From a virus: a stretch of DNA of 64,000 nucleotides. Both the position numbers and the translations under genes were made by a program. Of the stretch, positions 9,319 to 32,368 are shown in pieces; the first letter of the stretch is position 1, and each line of letters starts with the position of its first letter. The notes under the pieces were generated by a model, which did no database searches, was not told where the DNA came from, and worked only from the letters and a program-made list of their open reading frames with translations. Location of the stretch: IMG/VR virus record IMGVR_UViG_3300047546_001659, positions 1-64,000 of that record, one strand, 5' to 3'.

Positions 9319-10200
9319 TTATTTGAAAATAAGAGTCCATGGGTTGGTTACACCCTGTCCAAACTGGTTTAATGTTGCAACATAATTAGAACCAGAGACT
9401 ACAACGGTTGTTCCAGGGCTTGCAGCGGTTCTGGTAGTCCCATCAGGTGCTGTAAATAGAAAATTAGAATATGTAGTTGGAAATGTAATTTGTATTGTTC
9501 CACCTAAACTTCTATTAGTATTTGCTACTACTGTTCCTGCAGTTACAGAAACACCAGAAATTTTAGTTCCGCCTGTATAACTATTTCCCAGCATACCCCC
9601 ATAACCACCACCATCATAATTAGGAATTATACCACCACCAGCTCCAGCATTCCAACCACCACCACCGCCACCACCACCAGCACCGTCAGTACCACCACCT
9701 CTATTTCCACCATTAGTACCAGTACCAATTACACCAGCATTTCCAGGATTACTTGTTTGAGCATCTTGACCGGCATTACCATTACCCGAACCACCACCAC
9801 CACCACCGCCCCCAGCAACAGCTTGAATTACACCATTAATAGCAAGTACGGAGGCACCACCTCCGCCACCGCCCTGACCTGATGTTCCTACACCACCAGA
9901 GGCACCACCAAGCCCCCCTCTGAAATAGTATCCACCCATATTAGGGCCTTCACCATAATTATTATTCTGAGTGTTAGATCCACCTCCACCACCTCCGCCA
10001 CCTGAACCTACTCCAGCAGTTACAATATCACCAGGTGCCATTGCTAATGTAAAACTGATAGATGTTCCACCTCCAGCTTCACCGCGATAACTCGTATCTG
10101 GTCCTCCGTAACCTCCACCTCCGCCTCTCATAAAGACAGTTATATTAGAAGGAGTTGCTGCACCACCACCATAACCTAATAATGTATTATAAATTGACAT
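9319..10200 (-). CDS. Glycine-rich distal adhesin, gp38-like (copy 1)
   Basis: This 293-residue protein is dominated by long glycine runs (about 25-210, with up to eight consecutive Gly) interrupted by short variable segments such as NTQNNNYGEGPNMGGYYF. It ends in an Ig-like C-terminal part (about 225-293). Glycine-rich stretches of this type form polyglycine-II lattices in the distal adhesin gp38 of T-even-like phages such as S16, where variable loops between the runs contact the receptor. It is directly downstream of a fibre-tip protein (1-nt gap), as gp38 follows gp37 in T-evens. A second such pair exists at 32368-34868. It probably determines host receptor specificity. Confidence 0.7.
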   Translation of the reverse strand: MSIYNTLLGYGGGAATPSNITVFMRGGGGGYGGPDTSYRGEAGGGTSISFTLAMAPGDIVTAGVGSGGGGGGGGSNTQNNNYGEGPNMGGYYFRGGLGGASGGVGTSGQGGGGGGASVLAINGVIQAVAGGGGGGGGSGNGNAGQDAQTSNPGNAGVIGTGTNGGNRGGGTDGAGGGGGGGGWNAGAGGGIIPNYDGGGYGGMLGNSYTGGTKISGVSVTAGTVVANTNRSLGGTIQITFPTTYSNFLFTAPDGTTRTAASPGTTVVVSGSNYVATLNQFGQGVTNPWTLIFK

Positions 10201-10201
10201 A

Positions 10202-10909
10202 TTAAGTTAAACCTGCACCGGTTATTATTGCAGCTGAGGCACTAGTATAAAATACCGTACATAAACCTTTTATTCCCAAGGTTCTATTACCAGTTGTAGC
10301 TGCAGATTGGCCTGCCCAATGCATGGTCAATCCAGTACCTTGTGTAATAGTAAGAGCAGCAGTTGTACTGCTATTATGAATTGTTATATTTTCACCTGCA
10401 GTAAAAGTACCTGATGGAATTGTTACCGTTCCACCGGATAAAGAAACTGTTTTACCACTATCTAAATCTATTAAAGTATATCCAGAGGATGATGTATTAA
10501 TTGGCACTTGTCTTAAATTACCAATTCTATCAGAGACAGTATTTGCAGCTGTAAGATTGCCTCTTCTATCTAATATTAAATAATCTCTTGATGCGCCACT
10601 ATTATCTCTCATCCTCCATCTAAAAGATCTATTAGCTGCAAATGTTGCATCACTTGAATAATATATTCCCGTATCATCAAGACCAGTTGTAAGTGTATAA
10701 AATGAAGTAGATTCGTCTGTTCTTAATGCAATACTACCTGCAGGACTCAACACCCTGAATCCACCATCGGAACCATTTGCCCATAAATTTGCACTATGAA
10801 TATGTGCACCTGTAAATGTAAATGATCCAGTAGTATTGACTGCTTCCGAAAGAGAAGCATTAAGATCAGCTGCTGTTAATACATCACCCTGTAAATATGT
10901 TTTTCCCAT
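10202..10909 (-). CDS. Tail fibre tip protein with beta-rich C-terminal module
   Basis: This 235-residue fibre-type protein opens with LQGDVLTAADLNASLSEAVN, a common attachment segment of phage fibre proteins. A Ser/Thr/Asn-rich beta region follows. The last 95 residues (from about SSSGYTLIDLDSGKTVSLSG) contain MHWAGQ, TGNRTLGIKGLCTVFYTS and IITGAG. They align by eye with the C-terminus of the 552-residue fibre at 33210-34868 (MYWAGTANTGNRTLLQRGLA). Both proteins are followed at once by a glycine-rich adhesin, so this module may be the docking tip for the adhesin. Confidence 0.65.
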   Translation of the reverse strand: MGKTYLQGDVLTAADLNASLSEAVNTTGSFTFTGAHIHSANLWANGSDGGFRVLSPAGSIALRTDESTSFYTLTTGLDDTGIYYSSDATFAANRSFRWRMRDNSGASRDYLILDRRGNLTAANTVSDRIGNLRQVPINTSSSGYTLIDLDSGKTVSLSGGTVTIPSGTFTAGENITIHNSSTTAALTITQGTGLTMHWAGQSAATTGNRTLGIKGLCTVFYTSASAAIITGAGLT

Positions 10910-10912
10910 CTC

Positions 10913-11272
10913 TTATCCCATTATTAAACCGTTTTCAGGAGGAATATCTGGTCCTCCTAACACTGCAGTTCCTAATCTACCAGCATTTGATGGTGATTCT
11001 AGGGGTGCAAATGATGTAGTACTACCTGCTGTAATTACCGCACGACATCCACAAATACTTCCATCAACTGCTGTAATTTTACCCTCACATTTGAAATTAC
11101 CCGAACCATTTGTAATAGGCGTTACACCATGACCTGGTATTGGGCAAACATGTAAATCACCAACACGTGCTGTCAGGATCCCTTCAGTTCTAGCTGTTGA
11201 GGCGCTTGTTATTATAACACCACCATGACTACTAGAGTCACCTAATCGTGCTATAAGTGATACACTTCCCAT
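10913..11272 (-). CDS. PAAR-domain spike tip protein
   Basis: This 119-residue protein has the PAAR pattern: repeated Arg-x-Gly-Asp strands (ARLGDSSSHGG near 10, ARVGDLHVCPIPGHG near 35), followed by a Cys/His set (LHVCPIPGHG, FKCEG, ICGC) fit to bind the metal ion at the cone apex. PAAR proteins (T4 gp5.4; T4 length 97) cap the central baseplate spike and sharpen it for membrane puncture. It lies among fibre genes rather than next to a gp5-like hub gene. The C-terminal 35 residues are Pro/Gly rich, a small extension of the usual domain. Confidence 0.85.
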   Translation of the reverse strand: MGSVSLIARLGDSSSHGGVIITSASTARTEGILTARVGDLHVCPIPGHGVTPITNGSGNFKCEGKITAVDGSICGCRAVITAGSTTSFAPLESPSNAGRLGTAVLGGPDIPPENGLIMG

Positions 11273-12823
11273 TTATGCTCCGCCTATAAATTCTAAGGAA
11301 GAAAAAGCCCAGTTATCATTTTGTTTATAACTACCAACCCACTGATTCATAGTATATCTAAAGTATATAGGTGTGTTTTTAATACTATCAGGAAACCCTG
11401 TATATTCTATTTTTGTCCAAACATTAGTAGGTATACTATCTGCTGAGCCTGTTGCAATAGTTATCCAATTAGTATTATCAGTAGAATACTGAAGATAGAA
11501 ATCTTCACCACTATCAGGAGGATCTCCCCATTCACCACCACCTTTATTTAAATAAAATGAAACACCTTTATAGTATCTTAGAGTATAACTATTTGTAGAT
11601 GTAAAGATTCTATTGATACTTGTACTTGTTGATATATCAGTTGCAGTATGACCAAATAATCCAATCTTAACATCTGTTCTGTTTCCCAAAGGATTCATTT
11701 TTCTATTAGGACTAGCCACACCACCTATATTAGCAGAATTGATATTTGAAGGCAATAAAACCTGACTTTGTATACTGTCACCAACCGTATAAGAGGCAGG
11801 ATCATTAAAATTGATAGGACATTGTGGATTTACCGTGACACCTTCCAAAGATGATACTGCCCAGTTATCACCATCATTGTTAATATTATTTGTTGCATCG
11901 TAAGGATTGGTTTGTAATGCTAATAACCTTAACCAAACAGAAGATGATTTGATAGAATCAGGTATTTTAAATGTTATTGGATTCCATCCTGTTGTTCCAG
12001 TTGGAAATGGAGTTGTTTCTTGTAAATTTATCCATGTACTATTATTTGTAGAGTATTGTAAAAATATTGATTCATTGGCAGTTGTTGATCCATAATAACC
12101 AGGAGTGGTTGACCATAATACTGAGGAATCAGGATTTAATATTTGTAAAGCTACTCCAGATGGAGCATACGTATCAGTCAAATTAATTCTTAATATATTA
12201 TAACCAGCAGTAACTGATACAGAGTAGTTTGTACTTGATGTATAATTCAATGAATTTGATACAACCTGTATCCCGTTAATATAAATTACTGCTGAATTGT
12301 CAGAGGATACTGTAAAAGTGTATGTACCAGTTGTAGGAAAATAAATGATTGCAAATAAATTAGCGTTTAAATTGGGGTTAATTGGATCTAAAGTTTCTGG
12401 AAATACTCCATATGTAGTAAAAAAGGTTGAGGGTGTAAATGGTGAATCGTAAGCCTTAAAATTAATATAATATTTCCAGCTCTTTTGATTTATTGAATAC
12501 CAATTATATGATGTAGATAAATCAGGTTGATGGTTACCCCAATCTGCAGGACCATTACCATTTGGTTGGCTAACAAAATATTTTAAATAATCATATCTGG
12601 CAAGACTTACAGCGTTTTTAGTTCGAACAAATCTATATCCATTCTCGCCATATGAATTTACTTTGCTACCAAAAGTACAAATTAAATTAGTAGGATCCCC
12701 CAAAAGGTTACTCATATTGGAGTAATTAAAATGGGGAGATCCTACTTGACTTGGTAGAAAAATATTTGCTGCTGCCCCTAGCGTGTAGGTTGAAGCATCA
12801 GCAAGATTTATTATTTTTGGCAT
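11273..12823 (-). CDS. Virion adhesin with duplicated beta module and inserted PA14-like domain
   Basis: This 516-residue protein has two related halves. Copy 1 covers about 3-95 plus 252-329, and copy 2 covers about 336-516. Both halves share NLADASTYTLG / NFNDPASYTVG, then FLQYSTNNSTWI / YLQYSTDNTNWI, then PDSIK, and they end in DNWAVSSLE / DNWAFSSLE. Copy 1 is interrupted at about 100-245 by a segment with TTGTYTFTVSSDNSAVIYING, the pattern of PA14-type carbohydrate-binding beta barrels. No secretion signal or catalytic motif is seen. It abuts the PAAR gene, so a tail-tip sugar-binding role is plausible. Confidence 0.6.
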   Translation of the reverse strand: MPKIINLADASTYTLGAAANIFLPSQVGSPHFNYSNMSNLLGDPTNLICTFGSKVNSYGENGYRFVRTKNAVSLARYDYLKYFVSQPNGNGPADWGNHQPDLSTSYNWYSINQKSWKYYINFKAYDSPFTPSTFFTTYGVFPETLDPINPNLNANLFAIIYFPTTGTYTFTVSSDNSAVIYINGIQVVSNSLNYTSSTNYSVSVTAGYNILRINLTDTYAPSGVALQILNPDSSVLWSTTPGYYGSTTANESIFLQYSTNNSTWINLQETTPFPTGTTGWNPITFKIPDSIKSSSVWLRLLALQTNPYDATNNINNDGDNWAVSSLEGVTVNPQCPINFNDPASYTVGDSIQSQVLLPSNINSANIGGVASPNRKMNPLGNRTDVKIGLFGHTATDISTSTSINRIFTSTNSYTLRYYKGVSFYLNKGGGEWGDPPDSGEDFYLQYSTDNTNWITIATGSADSIPTNVWTKIEYTGFPDSIKNTPIYFRYTMNQWVGSYKQNDNWAFSSLEFIGGA

Positions 12824-12829
12824 TGCCTA

Positions 12830-13450
12830 TTAGGCACCTAAAAGACTCTTGAACTCTTCAGTGTGTTTTTTGCGATCTTCAAGACCAATTGTTCCGCCGT
12901 TGATCTTTTTTGTAACAGCAGTAACATCGTCTTTATCAGCTAATGCATTAAGACCATTTTTATGCCAGAACCAAGCAGCTGATTCACAAGCACCCTCTGG
13001 AGTCTCAAGATAAAGAGCACATTCTTCAACAGTAATACCCATATCAGAAGCCATTGCTGAGTAGTTATTCTTACCAGTAAGCTGAATCAACCCGCGACCA
13101 CGATAACGGAAACCATCACCTGATGCAGTATCGCCATTACCCATACGTGATGCATAAACTACGTTAGCAATCTTTTCTGGTTGACGAGCATATTCAGCAG
13201 CATTACGTCCAGCATTTTTAAAATATTTTGGAAATACCTTATCAAGACTCTCAGCTGAGTAGTTAAGATTTTCTACAATAGCTCTAAAACCACCAGACTC
13301 GTGTGCAGTCTGAGCAAGGAAATGAGCAAGGCGAAGCGGAGTATTGATTTCATATTTTTCAGCGAAATTATCTAGACTGCCTGCAAGTGCTTTAACAACT
13401 TCTGGCTTTGAACTAGGATAACCGTGTTTAATTTGTTCTTCTGTAAGCAT
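12830..13450 (-). CDS. GH19-family endolysin (chitinase/lysozyme-type muramidase)
   Basis: This 206-residue single-domain protein shows the family 19 glycoside hydrolase signature. The HFLAQTAHESGGF motif has the candidate catalytic acid Glu51 and a second Glu near 60 (AIVENLNYS). The substrate-cleft block FRYRGRGLIQLTGKNNYSAM lies at about 115-135, with a final CESAAWFWHKNGLN. Phage GH19 proteins cleave the glycan backbone of peptidoglycan and act as endolysins. No signal peptide or membrane segment is visible, so export would need a holin, which is not found here. Its place between fibre genes leaves open that it is virion-associated. Confidence 0.9.
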   Translation of the reverse strand: MLTEEQIKHGYPSSKPEVVKALAGSLDNFAEKYEINTPLRLAHFLAQTAHESGGFRAIVENLNYSAESLDKVFPKYFKNAGRNAAEYARQPEKIANVVYASRMGNGDTASGDGFRYRGRGLIQLTGKNNYSAMASDMGITVEECALYLETPEGACESAAWFWHKNGLNALADKDDVTAVTKKINGGTIGLEDRKKHTEEFKSLLGA

Positions 13451-13460
13451 GATCTACCTC

Positions 13461-14936
13461 TTATGTTATAGTATTATTATACATTATAAAAGCAAGTTTA
13501 ACTGTTGGAGGTGTATATGAATAAGTTTGACCTGCTCTTATATTAACTACATTTGCTGCATCTGTAGTATTTAATTTAAATTCTGATACATCCGTCATTG
13601 TGTGAATATGATCAAGTGTATCCTCATATGTATGACTACCAATATCAACAGCAGTCCCTACACCCACTTCCTGACCTGTCAAAGGTCCAAGATGTGAATG
13701 ATTGCCATTAGCTGCCATATCTACTGAATAAATTGTAAATGTATTTGATGAATTTAAAACAACATCGTGATATGTATTTGATGAATCGAAATTAGCATAT
13801 ATGTAATATCCACGAAGATCAGGTGTTTCATTTTCACCATTACAGAAATGCCAATTTACTGGTAACCCAGTTGAATTTGAACTAATACCTTCATATAATG
13901 TGTTTTTACCAATTGAATAACCTATAATTACACCATTTGCAATTGGTGTATTAGCATCAGTTGTAATCCAAGCTTTTAAAATCTTAGATTTCAAACTAAC
14001 ATTTGCAGTATAGGTTACTTGATGTGAATGTGCACCCGCTTCTAATATTTGATAAGCTGTTTGATTATTCTTATCTGATTTATATGTTTTAGCTACAGGA
14101 AATATGTTATGATTATGATTTAAAACAGTATTTGATGGTATAGTAAATGATATTGTATTAGAAAGTTGAATTACTCCATCATTTCCGTCTTTTGCTATTA
14201 GAGGCAATATTTGACCATTTGCTGAATTTATATGATCTGCGTCATCTTGAGAATAATAAGGGCTTGGAAGATTATTGCCAAATACAATTACACCTTTAGG
14301 AAAAAATGATAATTTTGTATCATTATAACCAGTAAAAGTTGTTGTGAGTCTAGGATCCCTTAAGATAGGATCAACTGCAATTGCCTTGATACCTTTTATA
14401 TTTCCATCATCATCTGGTTGTGCAAAAGGAATACCCCTTAACCCATCAGCAATACCTGTCACAACATGTCTATGTGTATCAGTACCTTTTTGTTCATAAT
14501 AAAATGCCGTAGAAGAAGCAGTATCACCTAGCTTATAACCTAAAGCATTGTAGATAGTTGTTCTTCCTAGTGTTGTTGGATTATGAGAGACAGGTTCATA
14601 CAATGTACCTGCGGTATTTGGCATGTCTGTTGTTGCTTCTATACATACACCATTATTATTTGCCCAATCATTGCTTGTATCTATACAAGAAATTACTGGA
14701 TTGCTTTGTAATCCAGATAATGAACCATCGGGTTTATAATATTGAGCAACAGGATAATAAATTTCTGAATATTGTCTATAGTATTCATAATTTAAAGTGC
14801 CTGAAAGTGTGTTGGCAAAATCTTCGTCTTTACCATACCAAAATAATACTGAATACAATGGAATGTAAGGATCTTTACCCTTTGGAGCATTAGCTGTTCC
14901 GTCAGTTCTAATCAATCCTACTTTAGATAAAGGCAT
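13461..14936 (-). CDS. Tail-collar-like short fibre protein (gp12-like)
   Basis: This 491-residue fibre protein carries a tail-collar-type segment LPVNWHFCNGENETPDLRGY (about 360-380). The pattern of a substrate-like loop and PDLRG is seen in T4 gp12 and many fibre proteins. Several His-x-His pairs (HNHN, HSH twice, HIH) resemble the metal-coordinating motifs of T4 gp12 and gp37. The N-terminus (MPLSKVGLIRTDGTANAPKG) is probably the attachment region. In T4, gp12 is the short tail fibre that irreversibly binds LPS and lies between the baseplate genes and gp13, consistent with this location. Confidence 0.6.
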   Translation of the reverse strand: MPLSKVGLIRTDGTANAPKGKDPYIPLYSVLFWYGKDEDFANTLSGTLNYEYYRQYSEIYYPVAQYYKPDGSLSGLQSNPVISCIDTSNDWANNNGVCIEATTDMPNTAGTLYEPVSHNPTTLGRTTIYNALGYKLGDTASSTAFYYEQKGTDTHRHVVTGIADGLRGIPFAQPDDDGNIKGIKAIAVDPILRDPRLTTTFTGYNDTKLSFFPKGVIVFGNNLPSPYYSQDDADHINSANGQILPLIAKDGNDGVIQLSNTISFTIPSNTVLNHNHNIFPVAKTYKSDKNNQTAYQILEAGAHSHQVTYTANVSLKSKILKAWITTDANTPIANGVIIGYSIGKNTLYEGISSNSTGLPVNWHFCNGENETPDLRGYYIYANFDSSNTYHDVVLNSSNTFTIYSVDMAANGNHSHLGPLTGQEVGVGTAVDIGSHTYEDTLDHIHTMTDVSEFKLNTTDAANVVNIRAGQTYSYTPPTVKLAFIMYNNTIT

Positions 14937-14948
14937 TTAAATTCCTAA

Positions 14949-15980
14949 TTATGTAGTTGGGAAACCTTTGGCTGACATCAAACCAAACCAAGTAACACCA
15001 CCATCAAATGTCATAAAGGTAACAAAATCTGTATAATTAGGTTGTGTTGATAGGGTAGGACCATCAGGTGCGTATATACCTTCACCCGCTGGCCAGTAGA
15101 TTGTTTGGTTAGACCAATCTACCGTTCTTCCGCCTGTCGAATCTTGTTTAAGAGCTATGGTCATACTAAATGATTTGCCTGCAACAAGACCAGATGTACC
15201 TAAAGTTATTGCAACAATATCCTGATTTAAAGTAAGAGTTGCAAGATTACCATCAGCAGGATCAACTATAATTGTTGTACCTGAATTACCTTTAGCGTTA
15301 ATCACTTCACTATAATTTTGAAATGAAGGGGCATAGATAGTATTACCACTAAAATTCATTCCAGTTGAAACAGAATTTGTAATATAAGCTCCGGAGTCAA
15401 ATGTGATGCCCGTTGCATTAGCATTTACTCTGAGGAAGAAATTGCCTTTACCAGAATAAGTTTGTGGAACATCTGTTAAGTTGATAAAGGCAAGAGTACC
15501 AGTGGCACCAGTTGAACCTCTGTAACCTACATCACCCTGTGATCCTTTATAACCAACAGAACCCTGGAATCCTTCTGATCCCTGATAACCCTCAGAACCT
15601 TTATATCCTTCTGATCCTTGATATCCAGCAGAGCCCTGATAACCCAAATTACCTGCAGAACCTGTATAGCCAACAGATCCCATATAGCCCGTATCACCTA
15701 ATGAACCCTGATATCCTGAAACGCCTACAGGCCCATCTGGTCCAGTTGAGCCTGTAAATCCTGTTGTTCCTTGTGATCCAGTAAATCCAGCAGACCCTCT
15801 ATAACCAGCAGAACCAGTATAACCTGTTAATTCAGATAATGGCTTTCCTAAGATAGCCATAACTGCATTATTAGACCAATACGGACCCTGTGATCCAATT
15901 ACAATAAGAGATCCTACATCGGCCTGACCGCCGGTAGAATTAGCTGTATCTATCTGGGAAACATAAATTTTGGTAGCCAT
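14949..15980 (-). CDS. Collagen-like tail fibre protein
   Basis: This 343-residue protein begins MATKIYVSQIDTANSTGGQA, an attachment-type N-terminus. Residues about 50-165 are a collagen-like Gly-X-Y triplet region built on GYTGS, GYQGS and GFTGS units, expected to form a trimeric rod. The C-terminal half is beta-rich and ends with the TFDGGVTWFGLMSAKG motif. A similar ending (FVTDDGGTTWRGIASM) is found in the 182-residue protein at 26398-26946. It is the first late gene transcribed leftward from the divergent region 15981-16095 and has a TATAAATA box 36 nt upstream. Confidence 0.8.
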   Translation of the reverse strand: MATKIYVSQIDTANSTGGQADVGSLIVIGSQGPYWSNNAVMAILGKPLSELTGYTGSAGYRGSAGFTGSQGTTGFTGSTGPDGPVGVSGYQGSLGDTGYMGSVGYTGSAGNLGYQGSAGYQGSEGYKGSEGYQGSEGFQGSVGYKGSQGDVGYRGSTGATGTLAFINLTDVPQTYSGKGNFFLRVNANATGITFDSGAYITNSVSTGMNFSGNTIYAPSFQNYSEVINAKGNSGTTIIVDPADGNLATLTLNQDIVAITLGTSGLVAGKSFSMTIALKQDSTGGRTVDWSNQTIYWPAGEGIYAPDGPTLSTQPNYTDFVTFMTFDGGVTWFGLMSAKGFPTT

Positions 15981-21232: not shown

Positions 21233-24200
21233 TTATCTGGAACTTACAAATACTGTTGCTGAATCTCTCGTTGAGCTAGCAAATATTGACACCCACTTAT
21301 TAGAAGTTCCAATTTGAACAGGTGTTGTTTTCCATGCAGCTGTTGCATTGTCACCTGCTAAACCATATGAATTCTTACCCCATGACCAAAGTGTACCATC
21401 AGCTTTAATACCAATTATTGTGTAACTAACGTCAGCTGCAACTGTTGAACCAATAGCATAAACTTGTTTCCACTTAGCCGATGAACCAATAATTGTAGGT
21501 GAAGATTGTACTGTATTAGTTAAAATAGGAGGTCTGAAACCACCTATTCTTCCCCAACCCATTAATAAACCATCATAATTGATACCGAAAATTGATCCTT
21601 CACTCGCTGTAATATATTTATAGTGTTGCATATAATAGTCTTCAGTGTTTTTATATCCTGACTGAATTGAAACAGGAGATCCCTTACCAAATACGTTACC
21701 CCACCAATAAACATAATCATCAGCACCTATAGCAACACCGACACTTTCACCAATAGATGCTGATTTAAATTTTTGAATGCCAGTTCTGGTTACAGTAGGT
21801 TTAGTAATTTGTGTATCTAATCTATCATTTTTACCCCATACACCTGTACTATTATCAGTACCCCACTGTAATAAATTGCCGTACACGTCAACACCAATAT
21901 TTAAATTTTGTATTTGACTAATTGAAGTAAATGGTGCAAGACCGTTTGGTAGTGTCTGAAGAGTGTTGTTGCTATTTGTAATAGCAGCATTCCAGTGATA
22001 CTGTAATCCGTTGACATTATTTGCAAACCCACCATATGCACCCAATTGATTCCATTTAGTTAACCCAAGACTAGTCCAAGAACCTTCCCAACTAGGTAGG
22101 CTTAAATTTGTATCAACAATATTATAATTATAATGTCCTACCAATGCGTCATATGGTACATATACTCCTCCATGCCATCCTGCAACAGCTAATTTATTAT
22201 TCTGTGATGGATCTTTAATAAACACAAAAGGTTGATCATATGTTCCAGAATCTGAATTATTTTCAGTTCCAAAATTATTTGGACCTAGTGGATATGTTTT
22301 AGAAAATTCTAATAATTTTGGCCAAGGTATTGGTGCACCGGCACTTCCTGAGTAATTATAAATGTTGTTTGCATAACCTGCAATGTTTGTACCAATATTT
22401 AATTCTGTTGGTGCTAATTCAGCACTCTGAACTGATGCTCTAGAAGTGGCAGTTTTACCATTCATTCTATCTGCCATATATCCAGTGACAAATGCTTTTC
22501 CTTCACTATCAAAAAGAATAGATGTATGGTTAGCACTACACCACACTGAAACCCATTGTGATGCTAAAGCTGTGCCCGCTATACCGGATATACCTACTAA
22601 AACTGGTGAAGATCTATTAATTGTACTATTATCACCCAATGCTCCTCTACCATTATATCCCCAACCCCAAGCCTGTCCACCAGTATCAATTGCAATATTG
22701 TGATACTGGCCTGCTGACATAAAGGTAAATGAAGTACCCGATTTAACTTGAATTGGTGAAGATTTATTTACTGTAGTACTATCACCAAGTTGTCCCTGAT
22801 CATTCGTACCCCAAGTCCATAGTTTACCAAGAGTATCTAATGCTAACGCCCCGGCAGCTCTTGCCTTTACAAGTACAAAACTTGTTCCCGCCATAAGCTG
22901 AACAGGTGATGATCTAGAAATAGTAGTTGTATCACCTAATCTACCATCACCATTATAACCCCAAGCCCACAACTGACCTAAACTATTTAAAGCAAATGTT
23001 GTAGCACTACCGGTTACAATATCAGTCCAATTATTTGCTGTTCCAATTTGAACAGGTGATGATCTGTTAGTTAATGCACCAAGAGTTTGGGCTAATTCAC
23101 CATTACCATTATATCCCCAACCCCATATAGTACCATCAGTTCTAATTCCCACTTTATGAATATTATGACCGGCAAATTTACTCCATTTACCAGGCAATTT
23201 TCTAAAATATGAAAATGTAGGACGAGATAACTGAGTTGCTGCTATAACATCAAGATCCACGTTAAAAGATAAAGACTCACCATAACCATCATATCCCTTA
23301 AACCACAAATCATCATTATTATCAACAACAAATATACTTTCGTAGTTAATTACAGTTCTTGATGATATCTGCTTAACTGACAAATCTTGACTATAAAGTA
23401 CATCAAATCCATTTATATCGTTACAATATGTCCATGTATCCCAATTTGATGTATAACGACCATGTCCTAAACCTTTGAATCCTAAGAAACCACCTGAGGG
23501 ATGATTATATCCTGAAGCTATGACTCTACCATCAACAGTTAGACCAAAGAAATTAGTATCATTGCCAGCAATAGCAGTAAAACTTGAACCAGCAAAAATT
23601 TGAACTGGTGAATAATACACACTATATGGTCCATATTTGGGTTTTATTTCACCACCACTATTTGCTCCCCACCCCCATACTGTACCATCTGATCTTAGTG
23701 CAGCCACAGCACTATGTTTAGTCGCAATAGCAGTATAACTATAAAAATTTAAAGGAACATAATCAAATAAGAAATTATAGATAGTTACGGTGTTGTTATT
23801 TTGCCAAGCAAATCTACCCGAGCCTGAAGATCCTATTAATTTAAGAACACCAGGTTGATCAGATCTTACCAGTCCCTGAACTGATAATAATGCAACACTG
23901 CTCACAGCATACACTTGTGTCAATGATGATCTTCTACCTAAAGAACCCGTTGGATCTGTACTCCAATCATCACCAAGTGGTTGTGAAGTTGTATTTTCAC
24001 CTGTTGCCCAAACAGTTCCGTCACTACGAAGAGCCCAATATTGTCTACCAGAATAACTATGTGCAACTTGTGTATAAGACGAAGAAGAAATAAGAACAGG
24101 GGATGATCTTTGTAATGTAGTACCATCACCAACTGATCCTTGGCTGTTTTCACCCCAGGCCCATAATCTACCGTTGATATCAATAGCTGTAGCAGTAGAT

Positions 24201-25903
24201 ATACCCGCTTTAACAATAGTAAATGAAGATCCACCAGCAATTTGAATTGGTGAAGATTTGTTTATAGTAGTGTTATCACCAAGTTGACCAACGTGGTTTC
24301 TTCCCCAGGCGTATAATTTACCTACTGTATCAATTGCATAACTTGAATCAAAGGATACACCAACATAAACAAAACTTGTACCTGCTAAGACTTGTACTGG
24401 TGAAGACTTATTAATAGTAGTATTATCGCCTACTTGACCATATGCATTATACCCAAATCCCCACAGTTTATAAGTAGAATCAATGGCCATAGTATGAGAT
24501 GGACCGGTTGCAACAAAATTAAAACTAGTACCTGATTTAACTTGAATTGGTGAAGATTTATTTACAGTTGTACTATCACCAAGTTGTCCTAGGTTATTAG
24601 AACCCCATATGAATAGTTTACCATCTGTTCGAATAGCTGCTGCAATTTTTTCAACATAATTTCCAATAGAAACAAAATTCCAAGATCCTCCGACCTGTGT
24701 AGGAGAAGATCGATCAATGGTTGTACTCTGACCCAATTGACCTTTATCACTTCCTCCCCACATCCATAATGTATAATCATCTTTGATTGCAGCACAATAA
24801 TAATCATCGGTTGCTATAGCTCTGTAGAATTTTGCAGTACCAGAAACATTGTATCCGATCTGCATAGGGCTTTTATAAGATGCAGATCCATATGGGGTTG
24901 TTCCATATCCTGACCCCCAGACCCACAATCCGTTGTTTGCAGAATCAATAGCAACCGTATGCCCGCCACCAAGATTTGAGGCTAATACAGCTGTCCAGCT
25001 TCCTGCAACCTGTGTAGGAGCATTTCTTAATATGGTTGTACCATCACCAAGAGCATATGTACCATTATATCCCCAACCCCATAATGTTCCATTTGTTCTA
25101 AGTGCAACAACATGTGAAGCCCCTGCATGAACAAAATTATATGAAGCACCTACGTTAATGGCAGTTTCTGTAAGAGCTCCTGAACCAGTACCACCATTAC
25201 CAATCATGCCAATAGAGTTGTTTCCTAAAGCATAAAGTTGATAATTGCTGTCAATGTAATGGATCGTTCTATAGCTGGGCGCATACCAAATATAATTAGT
25301 TGTTGCGTAGATATATGATTTATTTGTAACCTGAACAGGTGAAGATCTATTTGTACCTGAATTATCACCAAGTTGATTGTTGTTATTTAAACCCCAGGCC
25401 CAAAGTGTACTATCTGATCTGATTGCAGATGCAGCAGAACCAGATGCATTAATAGAGTTCCATGATCCTGGAACTTGCACTGGTGATGATCTATTGATAG
25501 TGGTAATATCACCCAATTGACCAACAGTATTTAATCCCCAAGTATAAATTTTACTATTATAATCTAAGGCAACAAAGAAGTTATTACCGGCAACAAGATC
25601 TTTAAATTTTGAGGCACTGATCTGAACTGGTGAAGACCTATCAATGGTTGTATTATCACCCACTTGCCCACTTGAATTTCTTCCCCAACCCCATAATGTA
25701 CCGTCAGTCTTGATTGCGGCAGCTGCTTCACCACCATTGACAACTTTTTTCCAAGTACCAGAAATTAAAACAGGACTTGATCTAGTTGCAACACTATAGG
25801 TTCCATCCCAGATTTGATAGAAGGCAGAAGCACCCCAACCATATACGTTGGAGTAACCTACAGTTGAAGAACCATCACCAGCAAGTAAAAAATTATTAAA
25901 CAT
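21233..25903 (-). CDS. Giant RCC1-repeat (beta-propeller) virion protein
   Basis: This 1556-residue protein is almost entirely RCC1-type repeats of about 45-60 residues. Typical units read LWGWGRNSSGQVGD, then RSSPVQI, then an aromatic/hydrophobic strand and A-x-x-x-DG. By eye about 20 repeats are present, enough for two or three seven-bladed propellers, with irregular inserts at about 720-760, 860-900 and 1180-1330. The N-terminus MFNNFLLAGDGSSTVGYSNVYG has no recognisable attachment domain. RCC1 propellers bind proteins or nucleotides in eukaryotes and block beta-lactamase in BLIP-II; in a phage fibre cluster a receptor-binding role is the simplest reading. Its start is 1 nt after the stop of the assembly-chaperone-like gene. 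Confidence 0.85.
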   Translation of the reverse strand: MFNNFLLAGDGSSTVGYSNVYGWGASAFYQIWDGTYSVATRSSPVLISGTWKKVVNGGEAAAAIKTDGTLWGWGRNSSGQVGDNTTIDRSSPVQISASKFKDLVAGNNFFVALDYNSKIYTWGLNTVGQLGDITTINRSSPVQVPGSWNSINASGSAASAIRSDSTLWAWGLNNNNQLGDNSGTNRSSPVQVTNKSYIYATTNYIWYAPSYRTIHYIDSNYQLYALGNNSIGMIGNGGTGSGALTETAINVGASYNFVHAGASHVVALRTNGTLWGWGYNGTYALGDGTTILRNAPTQVAGSWTAVLASNLGGGHTVAIDSANNGLWVWGSGYGTTPYGSASYKSPMQIGYNVSGTAKFYRAIATDDYYCAAIKDDYTLWMWGGSDKGQLGQSTTIDRSSPTQVGGSWNFVSIGNYVEKIAAAIRTDGKLFIWGSNNLGQLGDSTTVNKSSPIQVKSGTSFNFVATGPSHTMAIDSTYKLWGFGYNAYGQVGDNTTINKSSPVQVLAGTSFVYVGVSFDSSYAIDTVGKLYAWGRNHVGQLGDNTTINKSSPIQIAGGSSFTIVKAGISTATAIDINGRLWAWGENSQGSVGDGTTLQRSSPVLISSSSYTQVAHSYSGRQYWALRSDGTVWATGENTTSQPLGDDWSTDPTGSLGRRSSLTQVYAVSSVALLSVQGLVRSDQPGVLKLIGSSGSGRFAWQNNNTVTIYNFLFDYVPLNFYSYTAIATKHSAVAALRSDGTVWGWGANSGGEIKPKYGPYSVYYSPVQIFAGSSFTAIAGNDTNFFGLTVDGRVIASGYNHPSGGFLGFKGLGHGRYTSNWDTWTYCNDINGFDVLYSQDLSVKQISSRTVINYESIFVVDNNDDLWFKGYDGYGESLSFNVDLDVIAATQLSRPTFSYFRKLPGKWSKFAGHNIHKVGIRTDGTIWGWGYNGNGELAQTLGALTNRSSPVQIGTANNWTDIVTGSATTFALNSLGQLWAWGYNGDGRLGDTTTISRSSPVQLMAGTSFVLVKARAAGALALDTLGKLWTWGTNDQGQLGDSTTVNKSSPIQVKSGTSFTFMSAGQYHNIAIDTGGQAWGWGYNGRGALGDNSTINRSSPVLVGISGIAGTALASQWVSVWCSANHTSILFDSEGKAFVTGYMADRMNGKTATSRASVQSAELAPTELNIGTNIAGYANNIYNYSGSAGAPIPWPKLLEFSKTYPLGPNNFGTENNSDSGTYDQPFVFIKDPSQNNKLAVAGWHGGVYVPYDALVGHYNYNIVDTNLSLPSWEGSWTSLGLTKWNQLGAYGGFANNVNGLQYHWNAAITNSNNTLQTLPNGLAPFTSISQIQNLNIGVDVYGNLLQWGTDNSTGVWGKNDRLDTQITKPTVTRTGIQKFKSASIGESVGVAIGADDYVYWWGNVFGKGSPVSIQSGYKNTEDYYMQHYKYITASEGSIFGINYDGLLMGWGRIGGFRPPILTNTVQSSPTIIGSSAKWKQVYAIGSTVAADVSYTIIGIKADGTLWSWGKNSYGLAGDNATAAWKTTPVQIGTSNKWVSIFASSTRDSATVFVSSR

Positions 25904-25904
25904 A

Positions 25905-26393
25905 TTATTCCGGTTTACTAGGCCATACTACTTGAGATATATTAGTCAATTCTGTATTTTGATAGGATGCAGGTAGATCTCTTAATTGTTGTCTATAATT
26001 TTCCCAAGCTGAATTAAATTCAGGAGAATTTACTTTTATAACATCAGCTAACTGCGTCCAATCAGATTCTAAAAGTAATCTATTTCTTGCATCCCTTACT
26101 TCTTTTAGAATTATAGATTTCAACTGTTCTAAAGTATAAATGTCAGTAACATTTGCTTTATTGATAATTTGTTTTACTTTATTATCTTCAAAAACATAAG
26201 AAACACCAGTAATAGTTTCTAAAGTGTGATCAATAGTTATTTCTGAAGATTGTACTTCATACCAACCTAGGTTGTTTAATTCTTCTGTGTTGTTTTCTAA
26301 TAAATCCAATCCACTAATGTTCCTCCAAGATTTAGGAAGATCATCATGTAGTTCTACAACATTATTGTTTTCAACATAAGCAAATCTGGACAT
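25905..26393 (-). CDS. Tail fibre assembly / chaperone-like protein (DUF4376-type ending)
   Basis: This 162-residue protein has a C-terminal half with the pattern RDARNRLLLESDWTQLADV, then WENYRQQLRDLPASY, then WPSKPE. That ending is widespread in phage proteins encoded next to tail fibres and annotated as fibre assembly or chaperone-like. The N-terminal part begins MSRFAYVENNNVVELHDDLP. I prefer the ATG at 26393 over one 18 nt upstream because AGTAGG lies 7 nt before it and it does not overlap the upstream gene. It immediately precedes the RCC1 protein in the transcript, which is its likely client. Confidence 0.7.
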   Translation of the reverse strand: MSRFAYVENNNVVELHDDLPKSWRNISGLDLLENNTEELNNLGWYEVQSSEITIDHTLETITGVSYVFEDNKVKQIINKANVTDIYTLEQLKSIILKEVRDARNRLLLESDWTQLADVIKVNSPEFNSAWENYRQQLRDLPASYQNTELTNISQVVWPSKPE

Positions 26394-26397
26394 TTTA

Positions 26398-26946
26398 TTA
26401 CCTACTATCAATCATTGATGCTATACCTCTCCAAGTTGTACCTCCATCATCAGTAACAAATGCAAGTATATCTACACCAGTTGAAAGTACAGGAGCAACA
26501 GCACTAGGCCATTTAACTGAAGCTGGCCATGTTATAGTATAACTTCCCGCTGCTGTTAATTCTAATATAAATGAATAAACTCTTGAAGAAGGTGGAGCGT
26601 TGGTAAAAGTAAATGCTGTGGTTGTTGAAATTGTCTTAGTAAAATAATTTGACAAAGCACAATTAACATTGTTTGTAGAAACTACAGAATATACCTGTGA
26701 AAAGTTACCAGTTAAATCTAAATTTGAAGTTGGTATAGCACTTGATGTACCAATACTAAGTGCTGTTATATTAACGTTAGACATAACAGCATTATTGGCT
26801 GGAGCCATAGGAAATCCTCCAACCTTGGCTCCATCATGAACCACTACAACATCTTTGGTAGTATCAATAGTTATTTCACCGACTGCTCCGGTAAAAGTGC
26901 TATGATCAGCTGTTGTTCCGCGTCTAAATTGTACTTGAGTTGCCAT
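26398..26946 (-). CDS. Fibre N-terminal-domain protein (RRGT/HDG motif)
   Basis: This 182-residue protein begins MATQVQFRRGTTADHSTFTG, followed by GEITIDTTKDVVVVHDG. This short domain is found at the N-terminus of many phage fibres and presumably attaches them to the virion. Residues about 85-182 are beta-rich and end with ILAFVTDDGGTTWRGIASM, matching the end of the collagen-like protein at 14949-15980. A CATAAATA late box lies 22 nt upstream and overlaps the stop of the 64-residue gene before it. Confidence 0.65.
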   Translation of the reverse strand: MATQVQFRRGTTADHSTFTGAVGEITIDTTKDVVVVHDGAKVGGFPMAPANNAVMSNVNITALSIGTSSAIPTSNLDLTGNFSQVYSVVSTNNVNCALSNYFTKTISTTTAFTFTNAPPSSRVYSFILELTAAGSYTITWPASVKWPSAVAPVLSTGVDILAFVTDDGGTTWRGIASMIDSR

Positions 26947-27200: not shown

Positions 27201-29312
27201 TTATTGATCCGGCAATGGAAATTTAGGAACTCCAAAATTTGAAGTATATTTAGCATATAAACATATAGAAAATTGATCTATAAATCCATTCATGTAAGTA
27301 GAACTTGCATCATAACCAATGAAAGGTCCGTGTGTTATAGATGTATAATCATTTGTATCTGTATAACTAGAACCCCTTTGAATACCGTCTACAAATAATC
27401 TAGTAGTTCCTGATGATCTACAAACAGCAAAATGATACCATTGACCTAGATTAGGATTAAATCCAGAGTCAATTCTGGTTGCACCATTTGAATAAAACTG
27501 AAATGTTGGAGTACTAGTTAAACCTACAAATAAAGTACCTGTTGAAAAGAATCTAGTACTTGCGGTTTTTGCAGAGAGATTAATCCAAAATTCAATTGTA
27601 AAATCACCTTTTCCAAATGCAAAAACTGGATTTGCTATATTGTTTGTATGTGTTAAATTCAAATAACCATTTGTACCATTGAAAAATATAGTATTTGAAC
27701 TAAATTTTTTATTAGTAGAAGAAACTATAGCTCCTCCTAGAGTCCTTATGTTTGTTCTACTATTTGCATCATATATTTTTAAATTTGATCCATTTAATAA
27801 AAATATAGTATTATTATCACTAGTTGATGGTTTAGTAGGAAGTGTAAATGAAGGATTTGTATAACGAGCAATACCTTTTGATATTCTTAGATCTGAAATA
27901 TATCCCTGAAATTTATTTGTTCCATCAGTTGCATTATGACCTACTGCTGGTGTGGCAAGGCCTGGTGCTGTAGAATAATCTACTAATGAGGTTGTAGATG
28001 CTGAATTGCTTAAAATTCCATTAATATATAATCTAATTACCCCATTTTTTCTTGTTACAGCAACATGTACCCACTGCTTTGGAGGAACTAATATTGATCC
28101 AGTATTGTGAAAAGTAGTTCCATCATAAAATTCAAGAATATAGTTAGCTTTTAATCTAAAATAAAAATTTGATCCAAAAGTAAAAATTACTTGTTGTGTA
28201 TTAGTTCTCGTAAATACCCAGGCCTCAACAGTAAAATCTCCTGTGCCCCAATAAACATCAAGGGTAGGCATTTGCAAATTATCACTAGTACCATCAAAAT
28301 ATATACTTCCACCTATATCAGTATTAGAATATTGAGAAATTGATTTAGCAAAAGGAGAAAACGAAAAATTTTCTGGTCTATTACCACCATCAGAGAGTGT
28401 GGTGTTGCTTGTTCCTTTATCAAGATTATTAATACCTGACATTACTAAAAATATAGTATTAGAATCTGCAGTTAAATTTGTTGTTGGAACTGAAAATGTA
28501 TTACCTGAATATGCAGACGATCCCTTTATAATTCTAAGATTATTCATAAAACCTTTATAATTATAGTTAGAATATGAATGATATCCAATTAAATTCATCA
28601 TGTTAAAATTTGTATTATTGAATGCAGATGCAACTTCTACACCATCTTTATACAATCTTAATGTATTTGATATTCTAGTAACGGCAACATGATACCATTT
28701 TGAAATAGTAATTGGAGTAGGATCAAAAATATAAGTACCTTGAGAACCCTGAACCCTATAACCAACAGCTAACCTATCTGCCCCATCAATAAACACCAAA
28801 AAAGCACGATCATTGACCCCTCCTGCAGGATCTGAGGAAACTATAGGATTTCCAAGAACACTTCCGCTCGCTGATCCTGTATTCTGAGGATATATCCAAA
28901 CCTCAAATGAAAAATCTCCGGATCCAAGTGCAATATGATTAAAGGTAAAATAATTACCTCCTAGAAAAGCTCCATTAAAATAAGTTGACCAACCAAATGG
29001 GCTATAAGGACTAAATGCTCCTTGTGCTGCTAAACTAGCTCCTGTCTGAGTTATGGTAACATTTCTTGATGAGCTATCGTAAAAGGCATAATTATTAGAT
29101 TTATTATCACCAATAGATTTTAAAAATAGTATATTAGAATTAGATGGTACAACATTATTCAAATTATAATGAACACTGTAATCAGATGGCCATGTGTTAC
29201 CAATTCTCTGGCTTCTTTCAACATCTTTAAGGTTCCACATTCCACTGGCTGAATATTCACCAATGCTTGTGTTTACACCAAGATATCCACCATTTGGTCT
29301 AGTTCTTGCCAT
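27201..29312 (-). CDS. Triple LamG/concanavalin-like lectin protein (copy A)
   Basis: This 703-residue protein has three LamG-type (concanavalin A-like) domains. Each shows the strand pattern GDFSFEVWIYP / GDFTVEAWVFT / GDFTIEFWINL, then W-x-H-x-A-V-x-R, then RLYKDG / RLYINGI / RLFVDGI, and LRI-KG at the domain end. The N-terminus MARTRPNGGYLGVNTSIGEY with GMWNLKDVERSQ resembles that of the next gene, so the two are tandem paralogues (1-nt gap). LamG domains bind glycans, and as virion proteins they may help adsorption to surface polysaccharide. Confidence 0.8.
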   Translation of the reverse strand: MARTRPNGGYLGVNTSIGEYSASGMWNLKDVERSQRIGNTWPSDYSVHYNLNNVVPSNSNILFLKSIGDNKSNNYAFYDSSSRNVTITQTGASLAAQGAFSPYSPFGWSTYFNGAFLGGNYFTFNHIALGSGDFSFEVWIYPQNTGSASGSVLGNPIVSSDPAGGVNDRAFLVFIDGADRLAVGYRVQGSQGTYIFDPTPITISKWYHVAVTRISNTLRLYKDGVEVASAFNNTNFNMMNLIGYHSYSNYNYKGFMNNLRIIKGSSAYSGNTFSVPTTNLTADSNTIFLVMSGINNLDKGTSNTTLSDGGNRPENFSFSPFAKSISQYSNTDIGGSIYFDGTSDNLQMPTLDVYWGTGDFTVEAWVFTRTNTQQVIFTFGSNFYFRLKANYILEFYDGTTFHNTGSILVPPKQWVHVAVTRKNGVIRLYINGILSNSASTTSLVDYSTAPGLATPAVGHNATDGTNKFQGYISDLRISKGIARYTNPSFTLPTKPSTSDNNTIFLLNGSNLKIYDANSRTNIRTLGGAIVSSTNKKFSSNTIFFNGTNGYLNLTHTNNIANPVFAFGKGDFTIEFWINLSAKTASTRFFSTGTLFVGLTSTPTFQFYSNGATRIDSGFNPNLGQWYHFAVCRSSGTTRLFVDGIQRGSSYTDTNDYTSITHGPFIGYDASSTYMNGFIDQFSICLYAKYTSNFGVPKFPLPDQ

Positions 29313-29313
29313 T

Positions 29314-31404
29314 TTATCTCACATTGAATGCGTTTGCGGGTACAGGGAAAGTAGCTGTATATCTAGCTGCTCTTGTTACTCTAACATCATCTAAATAACC
29401 GGTAAATTTTTGTGTTGTATCCAACAGGGCACCAACTGAGAATCCACCTTGTCCGTAGTTAGTTGTATCTGCTGCTGAACTTACAAGAGCTCCATTTTTA
29501 AAACCATATACCGTCGAGCCTGATCTACTTACTGCCACGTGTGTCCATGTGTTAGAAGGAATTGTATCAGTAAAAGTAACGTTAGTACCAATACCAGAAA
29601 GTCCAATTGAAAAAGTAGTGCTATTAAATTGTAAGAAAAATCCACCTGTACCTAAATTAAATAAACAAACTTGAGTTACAGACTGAGTAAAAGTTGGATA
29701 TACCCACATTTCAACAGTAAAATCACCAGTACCGAAATTTAACATTGGATTACTTATACCAGTTATTTGTCTTGAAGTACCATCAAAATAATAGCTGCCT
29801 TTACCAAATTTCTTTTGAGACTGAGAAATAGAAGCTGATCCCAATGTCTTTAAATTATTTTTACCTGTTTTATCAACAACACCGCCATTAGTTCCTTTTA
29901 TATGCAAAACAGCATCACTATCTGTAGTTAGAGGTGATGAAGGAGGTGTAAAATCTGTTGTATATAATGCTCGACCTTTGATATATCTTATATCATACAT
30001 ATGACCTGTTACATAAGTAGTTCCCGCGGGATCCTTACCTGAAGTATATCTTAAATTATTTGTATAATTAAATGTATCAGAATAAGTACTTCCTACCTGA
30101 GTACCATTTACAAAAAGTTTAGTTGCGTTTGATATTTTACAAGCTGCAACATGATACCACTGCTGATAAAGTGCAGCATAAAGGCCACCAGGTGAAGTAA
30201 TTCTATCAGCTGCAATCCCAGTATCAGCAGCATAAGCAAAATTAGAACCATTATGGTAAACAATAATTCTATTGCCACTGCCTGTAGGATCAGTTAAATC
30301 AAACCAATCTTGCCTATTACCAGTACCAGCTAAAGTTGGATATGTCCAAAATTCGATTGTGAAATCATCATTTGCAGTAAACAAAAGTGCAGAAGATCCA
30401 ATATTACTTTGCAAATAATCTGTACTTCCATTAAAATATATACTTCCACCATATGAAGTGTTACTATAAGTATCTGATGGATAAAAAGGTGAGAATGGCT
30501 GTACTGATAATGTGGAACCAGAGCTAGGTGTTACTGTATATTGATTTGATGAACTATCTTTAAATCTATTATCTTTACATGTTAAAAATAATGTATTACT
30601 TACAGATGAAAGTGGTCTAGTTGGTGGAGTAAAATTACTTGTGTATAAAGCAGTACCCACTACAAATCTAATATTAGAAGCCCATCCAGTATAATACAAA
30701 TTAGGTGTCTGATTAGCTCCTATTCTAGGAGTAGAAAATGCAGTATATGTAGTATTATCCGTAGCTGTGGTGGCTTCAGCTACACCATTAATATAAAGAG
30801 TTGCTGTGCTTGAACCACTTGAAGATTTTACCAATGCAAAATGATACCATTGATAAGGAGTCAACGTAGTATTACCACCAACTATTGTAGCACTATTGTT
30901 TATTCTTCCTTGTATTTTACTACTAACTATTCTCAATTCTATTGTTTGAGTTGCATTATAAAGCTTTACTAGAGGTATTTCAGCCGCTGAAACAGTCGTA
31001 GGAAAAAACCAACCTTCTAGTGTATAGGAATTATTACCAACAGCTGTCATGTTGGTAGGAAGTGTTAAGTAGTCTGATGATCCACCAAAATAATTTGACC
31101 AACCAGTAGGGCTGAAAGGACTAAAAGATCCTTGCAGTGGTGAACCATTAACATTTATACTATATAAATTTGAGTATGTTGAATCATTTACATAGATTGT
31201 ATTATTAACAAATTCACCTTCTTCACCATTTAATAATAAAACAGTGTTGTTAAAGGAAGTATCTCTGAGTGTTGTATCTACAGGCCATGTTTGACCTGAC
31301 ATACCTGTTATAACACTATTTAAAGACCAAACCCCGTTAATTGAGTTGGTATTCAAAGTGTTAATACTACCCGACAATCCACCGTCGAGTTTGGTTCTAG
31401 GCAT
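29314..31404 (-). CDS. Triple LamG/concanavalin-like lectin protein (copy B)
   Basis: This protein of about 696 residues is paralogous to its downstream neighbour: N-terminus MPRTKLDGGLSGSINTL with GVWSLNSVI, then three LamG-type domains (SYTLEGWFFP, DFTIEFWTYP, DFTVEMWVYP, each followed by W-x-H-x-A and LY/LF-x-NG). I prefer the ATG at 31404, which overlaps the upstream stop as TAATG, over a TTG six codons earlier. Linkers between domains carry the recurring motif T-P-P-x-x-P-L. It probably binds carbohydrate on the host cell surface. Confidence 0.8.
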   Translation of the reverse strand: MPRTKLDGGLSGSINTLNTNSINGVWSLNSVITGMSGQTWPVDTTLRDTSFNNTVLLLNGEEGEFVNNTIYVNDSTYSNLYSINVNGSPLQGSFSPFSPTGWSNYFGGSSDYLTLPTNMTAVGNNSYTLEGWFFPTTVSAAEIPLVKLYNATQTIELRIVSSKIQGRINNSATIVGGNTTLTPYQWYHFALVKSSSGSSTATLYINGVAEATTATDNTTYTAFSTPRIGANQTPNLYYTGWASNIRFVVGTALYTSNFTPPTRPLSSVSNTLFLTCKDNRFKDSSSNQYTVTPSSGSTLSVQPFSPFYPSDTYSNTSYGGSIYFNGSTDYLQSNIGSSALLFTANDDFTIEFWTYPTLAGTGNRQDWFDLTDPTGSGNRIIVYHNGSNFAYAADTGIAADRITSPGGLYAALYQQWYHVAACKISNATKLFVNGTQVGSTYSDTFNYTNNLRYTSGKDPAGTTYVTGHMYDIRYIKGRALYTTDFTPPSSPLTTDSDAVLHIKGTNGGVVDKTGKNNLKTLGSASISQSQKKFGKGSYYFDGTSRQITGISNPMLNFGTGDFTVEMWVYPTFTQSVTQVCLFNLGTGGFFLQFNSTTFSIGLSGIGTNVTFTDTIPSNTWTHVAVSRSGSTVYGFKNGALVSSAADTTNYGQGGFSVGALLDTTQKFTGYLDDVRVTRAARYTATFPVPANAFNVR

Positions 31405-31760
31405 TAGCTTATTTGCTCCCAACTACAAATAGCCTGCAATGCAGCATTAGCTGATGCAGTGAGTTGGATTGAAGAATTTTCAAGTATATAAAAAGTAGTA
31501 TCTTTACCAACAACAGTAAGTGCAGAGTTTGCAGGTACAACAACGTTTTTAACAACAGATGTGTTAGAACCATTAACATTCAATTCAACAGTTACTGAAT
31601 AAGGGTTTGCATTTATATTAGCAACGTTGATAGAATTGATTTTATAAATTGTATTAGTACCTGTAGCATTCTGAACTATATTTGCAGTCGTCGTAGAGAC
31701 GTTCATATATGCTGTGTTACCAAAAATACTAGTGATGTTTACTATATTTGGGTTTGCCAT
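31404..31760 (-). CDS. Conserved small virion protein of T4-like aquatic phages
   Basis: This 118-residue beta-rich protein contains TIYKINSINVANINANPYSV, VVPANSALTVVGKDTTFYIL and SANAALQAICSWEQIS. The pattern of a beta sandwich ending in a Cys-Ser-x-Glu-x-I-Ser tail is one I associate with small structural proteins of T4-like cyanophages. Its role is unknown. It overlaps the LamG gene downstream by one base and follows the 190-residue collagen-like gene by 7 nt. Confidence 0.65.
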   Translation of the reverse strand: MANPNIVNITSIFGNTAYMNVSTTTANIVQNATGTNTIYKINSINVANINANPYSVTVELNVNGSNTSVVKNVVVPANSALTVVGKDTTFYILENSSIQLTASANAALQAICSWEQIS

Positions 31761-32360: not shown

Positions 32361-32368
32361 TATTTATT
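32361..32368 (-). promoter_or_regulatory. Late promoter (AATAAATA)
   Basis: AATAAATA on the minus strand, 21 nt upstream of the ATG at 32340; it touches the stop codon of the upstream glycine-rich gene. Confidence 0.55.

Follow-up and report, generated by a model that had tools for sequence, protein, structure and literature searches.

The tail fibres of a T4-like aquatic phage and its relatives carry a C-terminal module that is followed, in the next gene, by a protein starting with a short shared peptide. We put the probability at about 80% that the fibre tip is a socket, that the peptide (the tag) is a plug and that the remainder of the protein is an interchangeable adhesin. The C-terminal module of ~101 aa would be the docking domain, and the next gene would encode a host-binding protein of its own, which plugs into this domain with its first ~10 residues. 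The plug would be uncharged and mostly hydrophobic, and would lead through a Gly/Ser/Ala-rich linker into an exchangeable adhesin body. The module, the gene order, the tag, their mutual association, the diversity of the payloads and the rule that the tag follows the tip are observed in the loci described below. We infer from them that plug and socket bind physically, that the fibre is trimeric, with the socket at its distal end, and that this end is the tip in the virion.

The window, which is the whole stretch of DNA analysed here, comprises bases 1-64000 of a 118,011-base IMG/VR virus record. It contains a T4-like structural module with a tail sheath, terminase small subunit, tail sheath stabilizer, head closure and head-tail adaptor, and three fibre cassettes (Table 1). 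An earlier note on this DNA had described a fibre-tip gene followed by a glycine-rich gene at 9319-10909, recurring at 32368-34868, and both ORF pairs exist as described. In both, the glycine-rich gene starts within one base of the fibre end (the junction of fibre 2 and adhesin 2 is TAATG), the HMM-positive tip lies at the stop codon and the next gene is tagged. The shared tip module that the note had reported was confirmed by pairwise alignment of the C-terminal modules of fibres 1 and 2, which are 42% identical over 85 aa (E 4e-11) and have the TGNRTL stretch in common. The note had suggested aligning the two adhesins as well. BLAST returned no alignment between them, and the proteins correspond at their first residues only (MSIYNTLLG and MSIVNSVIG); the match that hhalign gave, over residues 1-68, was marginal. 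The note had overlooked that the N-terminal peptide is the common feature of the downstream proteins, as well as a third cassette, with another tip type, at 21233-26946.

Table 1. Positions of the fibre cassettes in the window and of the proposed docking elements within them.
Feature	Position	Strand	Description
Fibre 1	10202-10909	(-)	235 aa; C-terminus is a type-A tip module
Type-A tip module of fibre 1 (proposed socket)	10205-10507	(-)	101 aa; AF2 pLDDT 95.4, all-beta
Fibre 1/adhesin 1 stop/start junction	10198-10204	(-)	TAATATG (TAA-T-ATG)
Adhesin 1	9319-10200	(-)	293 aa, 32% Gly; no Pfam or PHROG family
Adhesin 1 N-terminal plug (putative)	10168-10200	(-)	MSIYNTLLGYG
Fibre 2	33210-34868	(-)	552 aa; LamG and collagen repeats; C-terminus is a type-A tip module
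Type-A tip module of fibre 2	33213-33512	(-)	
Adhesin 2	32368-33210	(-)	280 aa, 34% Gly; Gly_rich_2-like / Pam3 gp24-like body
Adhesin 2 N-terminal plug (putative)	33178-33210	(-)	MSIVNSVIGTN
Adhesin 2 TNF-like beta domain	32893-33150	(-)	Residues 21-106, pLDDT mostly about 90
Fibre 3	26398-26946	(-)	182 aa, Mtd_N; type-B tip at end (ITWPASVKWP...TDDGGTTWRGIASMIDSR)
Tail assembly chaperone (PF16778)	25905-26411	(-)	Sits between tip B and payload
RCC1-repeat payload of type-B cassette	21233-25903	(-)	1556 aa
Type-B plug (putative)	25871-25903	(-)	MFNNFLLAGDG

Several other genes on the (-) strand were noted. Cassette 1 is adjoined upstream by genes for a PAAR spike, a PA14/reelin-like protein and a GH19 endolysin (10913-13450). 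Two tandem proteins of ~700 aa (27201-31422) are 29% identical to each other and have three LamG-type stretches each, and the protein at 53471-54892 has proline-rich and polyglycine stretches close to its C-terminus. The collagen-like fibre at 31768-32340 ends in a hydrophobic peptide, GKSIAMNIIFGG, that is plug-like but C-terminal; this peptide (KSIAMNIIFGG) was considered as a widespread plug and rejected, having turned up in no other loci except those of the same virus.

The AF2 model of the type-A tip (pTM 0.86) contains no secondary structure other than beta except a three-residue turn, and its predicted fold resembles other phage distal or docking proteins. Foldseek against the PDB matched it to the Pa223 capsid spike (E 5.5e-5), an Acinetobacter phage tailspike (E 2.2e-3), a Klebsiella phage tail protein (E 2.5e-3) and, partially, T4 gp9 (E 0.034, probability 0.99, TM 0.47 by query), and a search of PDB sequences with the tip profile gave nothing convincing. 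Many uncharacterised phage fibre proteins in BFVD match the model; one BFVD match that is named glycine-rich, A0A6J5QL15, could be a fusion of tip and glycine-rich protein.

Among named phages, type-A tips were found in Synechococcus phage S-CBS2, in Kyanoviridae single-cell genomes and in the Autographiviridae S-B28, Limnohabitans YIMV22061 and Sphaerotilus vB_SnaP-R1. The module is the end of the ORF in each. A few bases away at most, the next gene opens with a comparable short peptide regardless of the body (MGIHQALFV, MSLQKMSVG, MSGIAMMLM, MSAIQMAVLL, MSAQQALLV or MPIQQALIV, the S-B28 peptide depending on the chosen start codon). A consensus-tip search added four records, three of which are alike (AG-345-E15, MPIQQLFLGAG; MW202483, MSGILNVLLA; MW202489, MAGMQGALIG) and one doubtful (MW202748). 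Behind the distant tip relatives of P-SSM2 and P-SSM5, the next gene is another fibre without the tag. In two Gordonia phages with distant tip relatives (L270, L271), the next genes both start VIPGVRHRATRRR and their bodies have diverged; these starts are possibly another socket-plug pair.

For the larger collections, the query was built from the three closer tips, an alignment of eight tips being insufficiently conserved. IMG/VR yielded 508 tip relatives, from which 80 loci were kept, and more loci were added by DNA pattern. Only two matches, both in metagenome-assembled genomes, were obtained from 84,980 bacterial and archaeal genomes, suggesting that the phages with this pair seldom integrate. 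Each of the 147 non-redundant tips ends 0-2 residues before the stop codon (128 at the last residue, 10 one residue and 9 two residues before it). The gap to the next gene was -1 in 77 cases, +1 in 27 and -4 in 14; the TAATG stop/start overlap was the commonest junction, and such overlaps would probably couple translation of the fibre and adhesin genes. No tip was fused to a payload among the loci examined, which hints that tip and adhesin are present in unequal numbers, as in S16, where three gp37 carry one gp38. One locus (L050:1062-5786) contains three type-A tips; one of them precedes a tagged glycine-rich gene, and each of the other two precedes another collagen-like fibre.

Most of the proteins encoded by the next gene start with an uncharged tag of ~10 residues with the pattern M-[ST]-I-x-Q-x-L-L-G. 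Partners were scored for the tag with a position-specific, leave-one-out score over residues 2-10, and 961 proteins from the same loci served as controls. The score separated partners from controls with an AUC of 0.952, and a threshold of 3 was reached by 119 of the 147 partners and 10 of the 961 controls. Roughly one-fifth of the next genes scored poorly; some of these are start-codon errors or inserted genes, and others may be real exceptions. The reverse search used two DNA patterns of the tag alone (MSIQQMLxG and MSIYNxLLG), ignoring the tip, and recovered 45 genuine genes and two short chance ORFs. Forty-two of the genes lie directly behind a tip, including one whose tip is cut by the contig end (L232, E 3.5e-6); two have the tip one or two small genes away (L238, L243), and one (L262) is on the same contig as a locus with a tip pattern match (L092). 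This search is only partly independent, because part of the 41 intact-tip cases were already known via the tip. Within type A, tip and plug distances correlated weakly (Mantel r 0.13, p 0.009). Fine specificity inside type A is therefore low or undetected, and this co-evolution test is not our main evidence. We found no description of the tip-tag pairing in the open-access papers that we searched, a scope outside which most subscription journals fall.

The earlier note had proposed that the tip module is the docking site for a class of glycine-rich, gp38-like adhesins. Tips that end at the stop codon, next genes that are mostly tagged and tag-found genes that lie behind tips all support the predicted docking site; the docked class, in contrast, is neither glycine-rich nor gp38 as a whole. 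Proteins with at least 20% Gly made up 97 of the 147 partners (66%) compared to 26 of 961 control proteins of the same loci, an excess well past what chance would give, so that tips are mostly followed by a glycine-rich gene. One third of the partners are RCC1, LamG, propeller, PA14, fn3 or other proteins, which argues against the glycine-rich class as the docked unit. The docking signal predicted from the sequences is the plug rather than glycine-richness. Domain scans matched 30 of 45 glycine-rich payloads to Gly_rich_2 and three to GP38. Among 40 other payloads, LamG was found in nine, DUF7483 in six, RCC1 and the SBBP propeller in three each, and PA14, SPRY, fn3 and F5/8 in one each. Domain type is the only basis for calling the bodies adhesins, and they would be the part that binds receptors.

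Bodies are frequently exchanged behind similar tips. When tips were at least 80% identical, a homologous body was found in only 18% of pairs, a figure lowered by the masking of glycine-rich sequence. The closest distinct relatives of fibre 1 (L209 and L210) keep the MSIYN tag and have a different body, which in L209 matches GP38; a relative of fibre 2 (L214) keeps MSIVN together with a body like that of adhesin 2. The GP38 body (PF05268) was detected in five payloads of other phages, four of them barely above the cut-off, and bodies of this type behind type-A tips are without the Gp38_N attachment domain.

The resemblance of the window adhesin to gp38 that the note had suggested did not hold. 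Neither adhesin 1 nor adhesin 2 matched PF05268, and Gp38_N (PF21721), which scores E 1.1e-19 in S16 gp38 itself, was found in none of the plug proteins scanned. Adhesin 2 has a Pam3 gp24-like fold, and adhesin 1 could be assigned to no family. Against Gly_rich_2 (PF21722), adhesin 2 scored 22.2 (E 1.6e-4), below the curated cut-off of 24.3, its relative in L214 scored 66.2 and adhesin 1 gave no match. The AF2 model of adhesin 2 has a mean pLDDT of 68.5, with a mean of 49 at plug residues 1-10 and values >90 at residues 21-50. Residues 1-18 of the model form no helix, so it has no N-terminal alpha-helical baseplate-docking domain. Its best PDB match was the Pam3 fibre 7ypx (Foldseek E 4.8e-7; profile E 1.7e-4). 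Next came a Bxb1 tail protein and the glycine-rich domains of ALK, and S16 gp38 was not among the 50 matches listed. Mycobacteriophage Bxb1 gp33 (tail wing brush), a glycine-rich match, was rejected as a solved example, the preceding gene encoding a 6.8-kD protein and not a tip-bearing fibre. Searches of annotated phages with the adhesins by tblastn gave no match, probably owing to low-complexity masking.

The tip of fibre 3 represents a second family, type B; treating tips A and B as one family was rejected on sequence (hhalign probability 1%). In the window, the type-B tip is followed by the tail assembly chaperone and then by the RCC1 protein with its own tag. Across 37 type-B pairs, which were picked by rule and include some start errors (L281), the tag is mostly ML(D/N)RxLLG-like. 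Leave-one-out assignment placed the tag with its own tip in 141 of 147 type-A and 33 of 37 type-B cases (AUC 0.954). Homologues of 27 of the 37 type-B bodies occur behind type-A tips, and two body families stand behind both. With the family left out, the tag predicted the tip in 29 of 32 (p 5e-5) and 12 of 12 cases (p 0.0014), 41 of 44 combined, with p values from permutation; the larger family is a single-linkage cluster joining RCC1, LamG and DUF7483 bodies. In these comparisons the tag follows the tip type and not the body family, as would be expected of a natural adapter exchange. The socket families would read different plugs, MSIxQxLLG for type A and ML(D/N)RxLLG for type B, and the same body family could therefore be mounted on either fibre by a change of plug. 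Elsewhere in the window, a collagen-like fibre at 14949-15980 (-) ends in a diverged type-B-like tip (DGGVTWFGLMSAKGFPTT), and in the next gene, at 13461-14936, neither a tag nor a family match was recognised.

The downstream protein could instead be a fibre-folding chaperone, like T4 gp38 or Tfa, which contacts the tip through the tag during assembly and is absent from the virion. Chaperones are commonly encoded directly behind fibre genes, and a Phage_tail_APC gene lies between tip B and its payload. A small gene also separates tip and plug gene in L243 (1314-1601, DUF7936) and L238 (6928-7269, a 113-aa protein of no family), and these are possible fibre chaperones. Such chaperone-like genes, however, are present in addition to the payload bodies, which are large and very diverse (Gly_rich_2, GP38 adhesin, RCC1, LamG, PA14, propellers), as is typical of surface-binding proteins, and we regard a chaperone role as improbable.

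A slightly less credible explanation is that tip and next gene are a mere recombination cassette, the tag being a conserved flanking stub of payload exchange with no role in binding. The tag does adjoin conserved tip DNA and stands in front of payloads that are swapped. Its synonymous codons, however, are fully randomised (the same codon is used for shared residues in 33.4% of cases, compared to 33.3% expected from pooled usage), while its residues are constrained: second codon positions carry most of the information, and at each of residues 2-9 at most 2% are charged. This combination argues against both DNA hitch-hiking and RNA signals, and by codon usage the tag is conserved as protein. It is also kept between very divergent tips, is found on some genes one or two genes from the tip and tracks the tip type on homologous bodies, none of which suits a stub. 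Least credible is a translational or targeting signal, such as coupled initiation or a signal peptide, in place of a binding peptide. The prevalence of the TAATG overlap and the ability of N-terminal hydrophobic segments to serve as signals would fit, but free codon usage makes an RNA-level signal unlikely, ~8 residues without a positively charged start are too short for a signal peptide, and the tag differs by tip type.

With the tip as socket and the tag as plug, we consider it reasonably likely that aquatic phages of several morphotypes share a connector code. Unrelated sockets with their own ~10-residue plugs would draw on one shared stock of adhesin bodies (glycine-rich, GP38, RCC1, LamG, propellers), and host range would evolve either when the body behind a constant plug is replaced or when a body gains a different plug. 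In the genome of an uncultured virus, no trait is harder to read than host range. If the plug rule holds, sequence alone would be enough to locate the receptor-binding protein in hundreds of marine and freshwater phages, including those whose body belongs to no family, such as adhesin 1. The rule would account directly for the transfer of adhesins with unrelated folds among phages that are themselves unrelated, and it supplies a short, testable candidate binding peptide.

Among known paired fibre proteins, those of Klebsiella phage KP32 differ in that their bodies are depolymerases and that the second receptor-binding protein sits close to the anchor end of the first; it is not known to sit at the C-terminal tip. 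The two KP32 proteins interact and have exchangeable modules (PMC8262889), as proposed here. T4 gp9, the long tail fibre socket, is trimeric, and its C-terminal domain keeps the next component of the fibre in a coaxial position (PDB 1QEX; PMC3004832); its fold similarity to the type-A tip is weak and partial, and it is a baseplate protein rather than a distal tip. Cyanophage Pam3 gp24 (PDB 7YPX, 7YFW; PMC9608196) combines a TNF-like domain with a glycine-rich body, as does adhesin 2. Pam3 gp24, however, is the fibre itself and docks to the baseplate through an N-terminal helical domain (PMC9608196), whereas adhesin 2 has a short putative plug and comes after a separate fibre. The closest parallel is the long tail fibre tip of S16, in which a gp37 trimer carries one gp38 adhesin (PDB 6F45; PMC6851490). 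The N-terminus of gp38 caps the C-terminus of the gp37 fibre, attaching by a ~40-aa domain (PF21721) of three helices with Trp residues that fill three gp37 pockets (PMC6851490). As in S16, a fibre gene is followed here by a separate gene for a partly polyglycine host-range adhesin, and this gene order holds in both type-A cassettes and in their relatives. Unlike in S16, the putative attachment segment is a ~10-residue tag without a conserved Trp, and the bodies behind type-A tips are not one family; a comparison of S16 gp37 with the type-A tip HMM gave no match. The simplest account of these sequences is that the proposed plug-and-socket joint follows the general design of S16 gp37/gp38, but the tip is unrelated, the attachment segment far shorter and the body variable.
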